DNA from: Elizabethkingia miricola
GTDB lineage: Bacteria > Bacteroidota > Bacteroidia > Flavobacteriales > Weeksellaceae
Assembly (NCBI RefSeq): GCF_001675285.1
Contig: NZ_LSGQ01000030.1
Location: 310,001-374,000, forward strand
DNA length: 64,000 nucleotides
Direction: 5' to 3'
Shown here: piece after piece, positions 42,720 through 46,653 of the stretch
Position numbering within the stretch: position 1 is the first letter of the stretch
Layout of the letters: each line of letters begins with the position of its first letter
Notes under the pieces: generated by a model
Told to the model about the DNA's origin: nothing
Seen by the model: only the letters and a program-made list of their open reading frames with translations
The model's database searches: none
Program-made: the position numbers and the translations under genes

Positions 42720-44843
42720 TTATTCCGCAGCAATCAGTTTCTCCAGAATCTCACATGCACATTGCGGCAGGTTTGTTCCCGGCCCAAATATATGATCTGC
42801 TCCGTTTGCGTATAAGAATTCATAATCCTGTTGTGGGATAACACCGCCTACAACAATGGTAATATCTTCAGCACCTAATTTTTTCAATTCTTCCACTACC
42901 TGCGGAACCAGCGTTTTATGCCCTGCAGCAAGTGAGGAAACTCCCAGAATATGAATATCATTTTCCACTGCCTGTTTCGCTACTTCTTCCGGTGTCTGGA
43001 ATAATGGTGCAACGTCCACATCAAAGCCCATATCTGCAAAAGCTGTAGCTACTACCTTTGCACCCCTGTCGTGACCATCCTGCCCCATTTTCACAACCAT
43101 TAAACGCGGTCTGCGTCCTTCGTATTCTTCAAACTTTTGCGTCAGCTCAACGGCTTTAGCAAAGTATTCATTTTTAGATGCATTCATAGCGTAAACTCCC
43201 TGAATGGTTTTTATTTGTGCTTTATACCTTCCGAATTCCCCTTCCAGAGCATCAGAAATTTCTCCTAAAGTAGCTCTTCTTCTTGCAGCTTCTATACTCA
43301 GTGCGAGAAGATTGCCCTTACCCGTTTTTGCACATTCTTTAATCTCATCGAGAATTTGCTCTACGGCCTTATTATCTCTCCCAGATTTTATGCTATTCAG
43401 CCTTTCAATCTGTTTCTGGCGTACCAATGAATTATCAATATCCAGAATTTCAAATTGTGGTTGCTTCTGCTGAGTTCTGAAGCTGTTTACTCCGATGATA
43501 AATTCTTCACTACTGTCAATCTTTGCCTGCTTTTTAGCAGCTGCCTCCTCAATTCTCATTTTTGGAATTCCGGCTTCAATAGCCTTAGTCATCCCACCTT
43601 CTTTCTCTACCTCTTCAATATACTTCATGGCTTCATCAATCATCTGTTGGGTAAGACTTTCTACAAGATAGCTTCCCCCCATTGGATCTACTACATCACA
43701 TATTTTGCTTTCCTGCTGCAATATAATCTGTGTATTTCTGGCAATTTTAGCAGAATAATCTGTAGGCAAGGCAATAGCCTCATCCAGTGCATTGGTATGC
43801 AAAGATTGTGTTCCGCCTAATGCTGAGGACAAAGCTTCTATAGCAGTACGGGTAATATTATTAAACGGTTCTTGTTCTGTCAAGCTCCATCCCGAAGTCT
43901 GGGAATGCGTTCTTAGAGCAAGAGATTTTGAATTTTGAGGTTTGAACTGTGCAATCAGCTCGGACCAGATATATCTGGCCGCACGCATTTTGGCAATCTC
44001 CATAAAATGATTCATACCAATAGCCCAAAAGAATGATAAGCGTGGGGCAAAATCATCGATATTCATTCCGGCCTGAATTCCGGTTCTTACATACTCTAAC
44101 CCGTCAGCCAATGTATAAGCCATTTCCAAAACAGGTGTGGCTCCTGCTTCCTGCATGTGGTAGCCTGAAATAGAAATAGAATTGAACTTAGGGATATTTT
44201 GTGAAGTATATTCGAATATATCGGCAATAATCTTCATAGAAGGCGCTGGTGGATAGATATAGGTATTCCTTACCATAAACTCTTTCAGAATATCATTCTG
44301 GATGGTTCCCGAAAGGAGTTCCTGATTTACTCCTTGCTCTTCTGCGGCTACAATATAAAATGCTAAAATTGGCAGTACAGCACCGTTCATAGTCATGGAA
44401 ACGGAAATCTGATCCAAAGGAATTTCATTGAAGAGGATCTTCATATCTTCTACCGAATCTATCGCTACTCCGGCTTTTCCAACATCACCAACAACTCTTG
44501 TATGATCCGAGTCATATCCTCTGTGCGTTGCAAGATCGAATGCTACAGAAAGGCCTTTTTGACCTGCTGCCAGATTTCTACGGTAAAATGCATTGGATTC
44601 TTCTGCAGTAGAGAATCCTGCATATTGCCTGATTGTCCAAGGTTTCTGAACATACATTGTTGTATATGGCCCTCTGAGATAAGGAGCAATCCCTGCCGAA
44701 TATTCTTTATCAATCAAAGCCCGGGCATCGTCTGCAGAATACGAAGTCTTCATCTGAAGTCCGTCCTTCTCAAAATTATAATTTTCAAATGCTGAAGGCT
44801 TAATATCAAAATCAGGTTTCGGCGTCGTTATGGGTCTTCTCAT
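42720..44843 (-). CDS. scpA: methylmalonyl-CoA mutase large subunit
   Basis: Adenosylcobalamin-dependent interconversion of succinyl-CoA and methylmalonyl-CoA. The 707 residues comprise a TIM-barrel acyl-CoA domain (about 30-500; G-P-Y-T-T-M-Y near 58-64 and R-T-H-S-Q-T-S-G-W near 310-318 line the active site) and a C-terminal B12 domain. The latter has the D-x-H-x-x-G motif, D-G-H-D-R-G near 589-594, and G-V-S-S-L near 637. No small-subunit gene adjoins: upstream are the GG-leader peptide genes and downstream the small membrane protein. The GTPase chaperone meaB is at 37351. Confidence 0.96.
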
Positions 44844-44978: not shown

Positions 44979-45000
44979 AAACGGACTTTTAAGTCCGTTT
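44979..45000 (-). terminator. terminator of GG-leader peptide gene A
   Basis: AAACGGACTT (44979-44988) pairs with AAGTCCGTTT (44991-45000), a perfect stem just after the stop at 45008. The same ACGGACT stem recurs after gene B, so the terminator seems to have been duplicated with the gene. Confidence 0.8.
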
Positions 45001-45007
45001 AAATTTC

Positions 45008-45172
45008 TTATTCCTCGATAGGAGGGCACAATGGTATTGTTCCATTTAGGCACCTTTGATTGCAATCCCAAGGATATTTTGTTCCATTGATAATACAATA
45101 GCCTTGTCTAAATTCTATATTATCCTTTCCACCAAGGATATTACTTAAGTTTTTTCTAGTAATTTTTTTCAT
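45008..45172 (-). CDS. double-glycine-leader, four-cysteine bacteriocin-like peptide A
   Basis: A 54-residue peptide. Residues 1-15 form a leader M-K-K-I-T-R-K-N-L-S-N-I-L-G-G, the pattern cleaved by C39-peptidase ABC exporters. The 39-residue core has Cys26, Cys37, Cys41 and Cys49 (C-x10-C-x3-C-x7-C), Pro-Trp before the second Cys, and I-P-L-C-P near the end, finishing P-I-E-E. It is 18/28 identical to peptide B in the cysteine region and 11/15 in the leader. No exporter, immunity or modification gene is adjacent. It is probably secreted and disulfide-linked; antibacterial or signalling role is inference. Confidence 0.8.
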   Translation of the reverse strand: MKKITRKNLSNILGGKDNIEFRQGYCIINGTKYPWDCNQRCLNGTIPLCPPIEE

Positions 45173-45185
45173 ATTAAATCTTTAT

Positions 45186-45212
45186 TTGGTGAATTACATA
45201 GATACAATATTT
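45186..45212 (-). promoter_or_regulatory. conserved 5' leader element of peptide gene A
   Basis: 27-nt block identical at 26 positions to 45447-45473 upstream of gene B, and exactly 13 nt before the ATG in both. On the minus strand it contains ATTGTATCTATGTA and ends in TTCACCAA. It could hold the promoter or a translation control element shared by both genes. Confidence 0.6.
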
Positions 45213-45246
45213 TTGTCATATGGCAAAAATATTAGTATCAAGTAAA

Positions 45247-45268
45247 AAACGGACTCTATAGTCCGTTT
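45247..45268 (-). terminator. terminator of GG-leader peptide gene B
   Basis: AAACGGACT (45247-45255) pairs with AGTCCGTTT (45260-45268), 7 nt after the stop. The stem matches that after gene A. Confidence 0.8.
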
Positions 45269-45274
45269 AATCTT

Positions 45275-45433
45275 TTAGTCCTCAGTAAATGGGCATAATG
45301 GAATTAATCCGTTTGGACATCTTCTGTTGCATGGCCAAGGGCGTAATTTTCCATCAATAAGGCAATGTCCTTGTTGATCACTAAGATCTCCGCCAACAAT
45401 ACTGCTCAGTTCTTTTCTGTTAATTTTTTTCAT
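45275..45433 (-). CDS. double-glycine-leader, four-cysteine bacteriocin-like peptide B
   Basis: A 52-residue peptide. Leader M-K-K-I-N-R-K-E-L-S-S-I-V-G-G (1-15), core of 37 residues with Cys24, Cys35, Cys39 and Cys47 in the same C-x10-C-x3-C-x7-C spacing as peptide A. Q-G-x-C, P-W-x-C-N-x-R-C-x-N-G and I-P-L-C-P are shared; it ends F-T-E-D. The acidic tail and the Arg/Lys exchanges show conservative divergence with cysteines fixed, which indicates selection on a folded product. Each gene has its own leader block and terminator, so they are separate transcription units produced by tandem duplication. Confidence 0.8.
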   Translation of the reverse strand: MKKINRKELSSIVGGDLSDQQGHCLIDGKLRPWPCNRRCPNGLIPLCPFTED

Positions 45434-45446
45434 AATATATCATATA

Positions 45447-45473
45447 TTGGTGAACTACATAGATACAATATTT
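45447..45473 (-). promoter_or_regulatory. conserved 5' leader element of peptide gene B
   Basis: Counterpart of 45186-45212: 26 of 27 positions identical and the same 13-nt distance to the ATG, while the 13-nt spacer itself has diverged. Confidence 0.6.
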
Positions 45474-45520: not shown

Positions 45521-45543
45521 AAAGCGGGCTTCAAAGCCCACTT
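45521..45543 (-). terminator. terminator of prfA
   Basis: AGCGGGCTT (45523-45531) pairs with AAGCCCACT (45534-45542), with one G-T-type mismatch, shortly after the prfA stop at 45568. Confidence 0.75.
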
Positions 45544-45567: not shown

Positions 45568-46653
45568 TTAGAAGCCTTCTTCTTCTCCTTTCATTTTTTC
45601 AGCATTTTCTGCCATGATTACAGCATCGATCATCTCACCAATATCTCCATTCATATAAGCATCAAGGTTATAGATCGATTTATTAATACGGTGATCTGTA
45701 ACCCTACCCTGAGGATAATTGTAAGTTTTAATCTTAGCAGAACGGTCTCCTGTAGATACCATCGTCTTACGCTGTGCTGCAATATCACCTACCACTTCCT
45801 GAAGTTTGATATCATATAGTTTTGCACGAAGCATTTCCATTGCCAATTCACGGTTAGCTAACTGAGAACGAGCCTGCTGACATACAACTACGATTCCTGA
45901 TGGCTTATGTGTTAACTGTACTTTTGTTTCTACCTTGTTAACGTTCTGTCCACCGGCACCTCCTGAACGGGAAGTCTGCATTTCGATATCTGCAGGGTTA
46001 ATTTCCACATCCACCTCTTCAGCTTCCGGAAGAACTGCAATAGTAATAGCAGAGGTATGAACACGTCCTTGAGACTCGGTTTCCGGTACACGTTGTACAC
46101 GGTGAACTCCGGACTCAAACTTCATAATACCATAAACACCTTCCCCTTCAACTTTCATAATCAATTCCTTATAGCCTTTAGTAGCTTCGTTAGAATCGGT
46201 TACCTCATGTCTCCAACCTTTGGTTTTAAAGTACATAGAATACATTCTGTAGATATCCTCCACAAAAATAGCAGCCTCGTCTCCACCTGTACCTGCACGT
46301 AATTCTACAATGATGTTTTTATCATCAGCAGGATCTTTCGGGATTAGTAATACTTTCAGTTCTTCTTCAAAACCCGGAATTTTTTCCTGAGCTTCAAGCT
46401 TCTCCATTTTAGCCAAATCGGACAAATCTTTATCTGATCCGTCAGCAATAATTTCGTCGGACTCTTTTATCGTATCTAAAGCCGATTTGTACTGATCATA
46501 AACCTTAACGATTTTCCCCAGATCACTGTATTCTTTATTTAAAGAAGAATATCTTTTCTGATCTGAGATAACATCCGGCTGAATGATCAAATCAGCGACT
46601 TCGTTATATCTTTGTTTTATAGCTTCCAGCTTCGGAATTAAACTCTTTGACAT
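45568..46653 (-). CDS. prfA: peptide chain release factor 1
   Basis: Recognises UAA and UAG stop codons and triggers peptide release. The 361 residues are a normal length. An N-terminal helical domain is followed by the codon-recognition domain around 180-200 (the tripeptide lies in V-P-E-T-E-S-Q-G-R region), and the GGQ motif [10 protein letters not shown] near 228-237. The window thus encodes two GGQ proteins: this general factor and the specialised PrfH at 38931. Own promoter box and terminator; monocistronic. Confidence 0.96.

Follow-up and report, generated by a model that had tools for sequence, protein, structure and literature searches.

Elizabethkingia is a genus of multidrug-resistant opportunists, and a literature search found no paper on peptide weapons of its own. 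Two short open reading frames in a 64,000-nucleotide stretch of the E. miricola genome (contig NZ_LSGQ01000030.1, positions 310,001 to 374,000; hereafter the window) had been predicted, from the letters alone, to be a tandem pair of secreted four-cysteine peptide genes with Gly-Gly (GG) leaders. The locus raises the question of whether these frames are genes at all and, if so, by which route their products would leave the cell and what they would do there.

Two cassettes between prfA and mcm

Both frames are found on the minus strand, between prfA (peptide chain release factor 1, 45568–46653, minus strand), the conserved upstream neighbour that marks the locus, and a conserved downstream neighbour (42720–44843, minus strand) that we take to be the methylmalonyl-CoA mutase large subunit gene (mcm), a name given from sequence knowledge rather than from a family search. 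Gene A (45008–45172) encodes 54 residues, of which the leader MKKITRKNLSNILGG (45128–45172) precedes a predicted 39-residue mature peptide, KDNIEFRQGYCIINGTKYPWDCNQRCLNGTIPLCPPIEE. Likewise, gene B (45275–45433) encodes 52 residues, with the leader MKKINRKELSSIVGG (45389–45433) and a predicted 37-residue mature peptide, DLSDQQGHCLIDGKLRPWPCNRRCPNGLIPLCPFTED. The two proteins are 58% identical, and the features attributed to them in the original prediction are all present: the leaders end in LSNILGG and LSSIVGG, and both cores follow exactly the pattern C-x10-C-x3-C-x7-C, with PW-x-C-N-x-R-C-x-N-G and IPLCP. The net charge of the mature peptide is −1 in either case.

The flanking elements are equally alike. 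Each gene is preceded by a 27-nt block, AAATATTGTATCTATGTA[A/G]TTCACCAA, located at 45186–45212 for gene A and at 45447–45473 for gene B (both minus strand); as had been described, the two copies agree at 26 of 27 positions and end at the same distance, 13 nt, before the ATG. Genes A and B are the only places in the 4.29-Mb genome with a 24-nt form of the block, even when up to three mismatches are allowed, and the reversed 24-nt sequence, used as a control, is absent from the genome. The promoter-like element TATCTATG is the same in both genes (45197–45204 for gene A, with a TTG 19 nt upstream, and 45458–45465 for gene B, minus strand) and resembles the Bacteroidota −7 element TAnnTTTG, matching five of its six fixed bases. 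A sigma-70 promoter scan was set aside, since its model is unsuited to Bacteroidota promoters. Downstream, the claimed ACGGACT stems are present and terminator-like on the minus strand for gene A (44979–45000, 9-bp stem AAACGGACT/AGTCCGTTT followed by a T tail) as well as for gene B (45247–45268), and a further terminator (45522–45543, minus strand) separates prfA from gene B. In total, the region contains six terminator-like sites, where shuffled sequences would be expected to give 0.3. Each gene would form a self-contained cassette of promoter, gene and terminator, the promoter being a predicted assignment.

Copy number and selection at the site

A profile search of the genus recovered the prfA–mcm site in three other Elizabethkingia genomes, among them E. 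occulta G4070 and strain YR214, with prfA showing 94–100% identity across the homologous sites. All four of the large Elizabethkingia genomes in the sample thus carry the locus, while two small, fragmented genomes (2.7 and 2.2 Mb) grouped with the genus gave no match. Each of the three other genomes carries three four-cysteine genes at the site. Hence duplication was correctly proposed, and additional paralogs are found on contigs C5 and C1 of the window's genome, but the tandem pair is a reduced triad: two genes do stand in the window, and the middle copy is absent from it. Counting the two in the window, the site comprises 11 genes; every one has the terminal ACCAA of the 5′ block 13 nt ahead of its ATG, and each is followed by an ACGGACT/GTCCGT terminator. 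The gene A protein has an identical copy in E. occulta G4070. Judged from these sequences, the features common to genes A and B reflect homology and not chance, since the orthologs in the three other genomes keep them.

In the window spacer, the sequence that flanks the E. occulta copy-1 terminator on the left is joined to that flanking the copy-2 terminator on the right. This junction fits recombination between terminator repeats, by which the middle copy was apparently lost, the terminator of gene B being the probable recombination point. Parsimony favours, without proving, a loss in the window lineage. The third copy of YR214 shares its last 15 aligned bases with gene A and has a near-identical leader, whereas one stretch in between matches E. 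occulta copy 1 at 18 of 18 positions and gene A at 11 of 18; such a mosaic fits gene conversion. In one genome of a large neighbouring genus (g21, presumably Chryseobacterium) a peptide gene lies directly after prfA, its product having an Ala-Gly leader end and the retained spacing C-x10-C-x3-C-x7-C. Consequently, the use of this site for peptides is probably older than the genus Elizabethkingia.

Selection, which had also been claimed, was assessed from Nei–Gojobori counts of dN/dS. The individual ortholog groups gave ratios of 0.05–0.37, with 0.10 for gene B, 0.07 for the middle (third) copy and 0.37 for gene A. Pooling of six ortholog groups gave 0.07 for the leader and 0.21 for the core, while the core of gene A alone reached 0.48. 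Pairwise Fisher tests returned p values from 3e-7 (gene B versus the E. occulta copy) to 0.02. As the sums reuse branches among four genomes, these ratios demonstrate constraint and do not provide a precise rate. Short frames amid housekeeping genes, flanked by repeated blocks, could in principle be non-coding, their conservation reflecting a regulatory or repeat DNA element. Such an element is contradicted by the codon pattern, as substitutions are concentrated at synonymous sites, and the cysteine spacing and leader are moreover kept at 35–58% protein identity and at unlinked loci, making this explanation exceedingly improbable. Genes A and B are real genes, and from their substitution pattern they are very probably translated and under selection.

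A four-cysteine family with an invariant leader motif

The search for the cysteine spacing combined with a GG leader yielded homologues both in Elizabethkingia and in g21. The window's own genome holds a tandem four-cysteine pair, 35% identical to gene A and followed by two six-cysteine GG peptides (C5:24998-25397), as well as one more four-cysteine gene on contig C1, while the g21 relatives are found at the exporter described below, between lon and a DoxX-like gene, and at other sites. Together with the constraint described above, this excludes two outcomes that would have refuted the original prediction, namely a lack of homologues and a lack of constraint. Across 32 aligned relatives, the window genes included, the GG, Leu-7 and, as predicted, the four cysteines are invariant, the spacing being C-x(8-12)-C-x3-C-x(7 or 9)-C and the net charge of the mature peptides −4 to +2. 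Positions −4 and −12 are Ile or Leu in all 32, so that every relative combines hydrophobic residues at −4, −7 and −12 with a terminal GG, a feature of GG-leader PCAT substrates. In LahT, the leader is recognized through hydrophobic pockets for Val-4, Leu-7 and Leu-12, and the leader of gene A offers I-4, L-7, I-12 and GG at the same recognition positions (PMC6363468). The motif therefore fits recognition by a C39 protease.

The leader class as a whole is considerably larger. A profile search, from which the GG-peptide counts derive, gave 42 leader-model matches in the window's genome at E up to 1, and about 40 per genome. A figure of 112 of 296 genomes was rejected as the size of the four-cysteine family, because many of the weak matches were leader-only or belonged to other Cys-rich GG peptides, and an Actinobacteria MAG locus (L014) was set aside, as it comprised 14 matching residues only. 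Two further tandem arrays in the window's genome (C5:103269-104214 and C7:302882-303940; L109 and L110) each encode five peptides that combine a GG leader with cysteines in different patterns. Ahead of the four-Cys/six-Cys tetrad on C5, and ending 18 nt before it, lies a gene (C5:24533-24979, L017) for a 148-aa protein with a signal-peptide-like N-terminus; it is present in four Elizabethkingia genomes at 82–100% and has no Pfam match.

The ACCAA motif also recurs beyond the prfA site. Of the Cys-rich GG-peptide genes in the window's genome, 17 of 27 have it no more than 28 nt ahead of the ATG, compared with 3 of 98 genes of other kinds (Fisher p 2e-11, with paralogs that are not independent in these counts), the loci counted being 45186 and 45447 of the window, L015, L017, L018, L019 and L108–L110, with some of the genes inside operons. 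A weaker association is seen in g21 (17 of 49 GG-peptide genes versus 3 of 53 others). ACCAA could act in translation or regulation as an element common to these genes, or could have been inherited with the leader.

With respect to existing family models, NF047798 (leader_Chryseo, 'bacteriocin-like protein') represents the same leader class, but describes the leader only; the window peptides score 15.0 and 14.7 bits, below its cut-off of 23.5, which the C5 paralogs and the relatives in the neighbouring genus exceed. Gene B reaches 14.8 on the bacteriocin-type signal sequence model TIGR01847, also confined to the signal and with a cut-off of 15.7, and gene A alone registers on the Clo7bot Cys-rich peptide model TIGR04333 (14.6 bits against a cut-off of 31). 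None of the members tested reached NF047792 (CCPGW family putative bacteriocin), which also belongs to this leader class, and a sub-threshold defensin-like Pfam match of gene A was treated as chance. A literature search for the four-cysteine family found nothing specific. These peptides most likely constitute a new subfamily of a known kind of GG-leader peptide, whose leaders in Chryseobacterium NCBI already models.

A predicted VKOR-coupled exporter on contig C1

The peptides had been suggested to depend on a distant C39-type transporter, and the search for one in the same genome returned two C39 matches. The first is a PCAT (C39 ABC transporter, C1:552041-554242) with Peptidase_C39 (E 1.7e-31), ABC_membrane (4.8e-31) and ABC_tran (1.5e-28) domains, whose start, QPDAKDCGPTC, is what we would expect of an active C39 domain. 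It belongs to a cluster encoded on one strand throughout, together with a six-cysteine GG peptide (C1:551507-551683), the four-cysteine sister peptide (C1:551282-551464), a 434-aa HlyD-like adaptor (C1:549878-551182) and a 504-aa protein (C1:548301-549815) combining VKOR (E 1.6e-11) and Thioredoxin_4 (E 2e-5) domains, the cysteines of which at 259/262 and 371/374 form two CxxC motifs. In all four Elizabethkingia genomes the sister gene is placed between those for PCAT and HlyD, as it is at three loci of the neighbouring genus (L078–L080), and the three other Elizabethkingia genomes preserve the cluster arrangement, which is partly shuffled in g21. Many g21 genomes replace the four-cysteine gene at the exporter with one for a peptide whose leader ends in Gly-Ala or Gly-Ser and whose core reads CNCFC...W...C-N-x-Y-C-P (L050, L057, L058, L061, L067, L068, L070 and L099), in most cases between PCAT and HlyD.

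Homologs of the VKOR-thioredoxin protein were detected in 18 of the 295 Bacteroidia genomes sampled. Outside Elizabethkingia there are 19 such loci, and 13 of them, including two that adjoin in one genome, have a Cys-containing GG-leader-like frame within 1.5 kb. This count has no matched control; it therefore speaks for a general link of this redox protein with Cys-rich GG peptides but falls short of proving one. As the window genes do not stand beside the exporter, we infer their use of the C1 PCAT from the leader motif and from the family linkage; the embedded sister gene makes dependence on a distant transporter well supported.

The second C39 transporter is part of a lanthipeptide-type cluster (C27:102290-110010, L107) with Lant_dehydr N and C proteins and a LANC_like protein, a setting that led us to discard it as the main exporter. 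The presence of a PCAT next to dehydratase and cyclase genes, along with weak scores of two relatives on TIGR04149, a leader model of rSAM-modified RiPPs, would be in line with the peptides being precursors of a further modified product. Against this, no modification enzyme was found at the window locus or in the VKOR–PCAT cluster, the TIGR04149 scores fall below the cut-off of the model, and the partner redox protein suits disulfides, leaving modification improbable. Simple disulfide-bonded peptides are preferred. By homology with characterized components, the 15-residue leader would dock in the C39 peptidase domain of the C1-encoded PCAT and be cut directly after Gly-Gly, the 37- or 39-residue core would leave through PCAT together with the HlyD adaptor and an outer-membrane channel from another locus, and the VKOR-thioredoxin membrane protein would oxidize the four cysteines to two disulfides. 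That the products of genes A and B are exported GG-leader peptides is predicted with high confidence, and that they are disulfide-bonded is also quite likely.

Toxin, signal or inhibitor

The closest characterized analogues, by described anatomy, are the bacteroidetocins, proposed as class IIf bacteriocins (Coyne 2019, PMC6671954) and killing Bacteroidales by way of BamA (PMC8546649). Bacteroidetocins have a GG leader of 15–16 aa and a core of 42–48 aa with at least two, typically four, cysteines; their genes cluster with those for a transmembrane protein, a thiol oxidoreductase and a PCAT, and they kill without a known immunity gene (PMC6671954). The window peptides resemble them in the 15-residue leader with its predicted cut after GG, the four cysteines, the C39 ABC exporter, the thiol oxidoreductase, the lack of an immunity gene, the Bacteroidota host and a core of similar size. 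However, the cores are slightly shorter (37–39 aa) and near-neutral, whereas the first two bacteroidetocins have reported charges of +6 and +2 (PMC6671954). Moreover, the window genes are stand-alone cassettes between prfA and mcm, with only a paralog adjoining PCAT and VKOR-thioredoxin, and in place of the four-gene order of the bacteroidetocins the exporter cluster encodes HlyD and a protein in which VKOR and thioredoxin are fused. As this gene-cluster feature differs and the likeness is one of anatomy, drawn from published descriptions rather than from aligned cores, the peptides are not classed as bacteroidetocins. Class IIa pediocin-like bacteriocins likewise have the GG leader and a small core, along with the PCAT export and disulfides predicted for the window peptides, but here the producer is Gram-negative, there is no immunity gene, and the YGNGV motif is absent from the cores of genes A and B.

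Small, near-neutral, constrained four-cysteine cores could also belong to extracellular inhibitors, e.g. of proteases, or to structural or matrix peptides. Pfam contained no inhibitor-family match, and a sequence search of solved structures revealed no such relative and nothing better than E 1.4. A fold search with the AlphaFold model gave no match below E 0.001; the model is of low confidence (mean pLDDT 68.5, pTM 0.39, a short hairpin at about residues 21–34), so this last point is weak evidence against an inhibitor and no structural claim is made. Such a role has little probability.

A more serious rival, though an unlikely one, is that the producer uses the secreted disulfide-bonded peptides for signalling or kin recognition. 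Quorum peptides are among the cargoes of PCATs (PMC6363468), the cores lack a cationic character, there is no sign of an immunity gene, purifying selection on gene B and the third copy is strong, and conservation of the locus in every large genome sampled resembles a core function more than an accessory weapon. Conversely, no sensor kinase or receptor gene was found at the loci read, the dozens of GG-leader candidates with very different cores look more like an arsenal, copy number varies, and the gene A cores diverge. The near-neutral or acidic mature peptides do count against a toxin, whereas the missing immunity gene is uninformative, as bacteroidetocins lack one too. Taken together, a net charge of −1 and a conserved locus favour binding to a receptor over lysis of membranes, and for the same reasons signalling has to be taken seriously. 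On balance, bacteriocin-like, leader-cleaved, disulfide-bonded secreted peptides are the best overall explanation, and by analogy we lean towards antibacterial activity: the released peptide would bind a surface receptor of related Bacteroidota and act as a toxin in a mode comparable to that of the bacteroidetocins.

It is conceivable, if rather doubtful, that this genus-wide family of near-neutral four-cysteine cassettes, gaining, losing and converting copies at a fixed site, represents a new class of Weeksellaceae peptides that act through receptors as antibacterials or signals, with one VKOR-coupled exporter serving dozens of dispersed precursors. With the four-cysteine subfamily linked to a defined exporter and its predicted disulfide-forming partner, the GG-peptide repertoire becomes testable through one transporter, and a single site at which copies were apparently lost and converted provides a small natural model of repertoire evolution.
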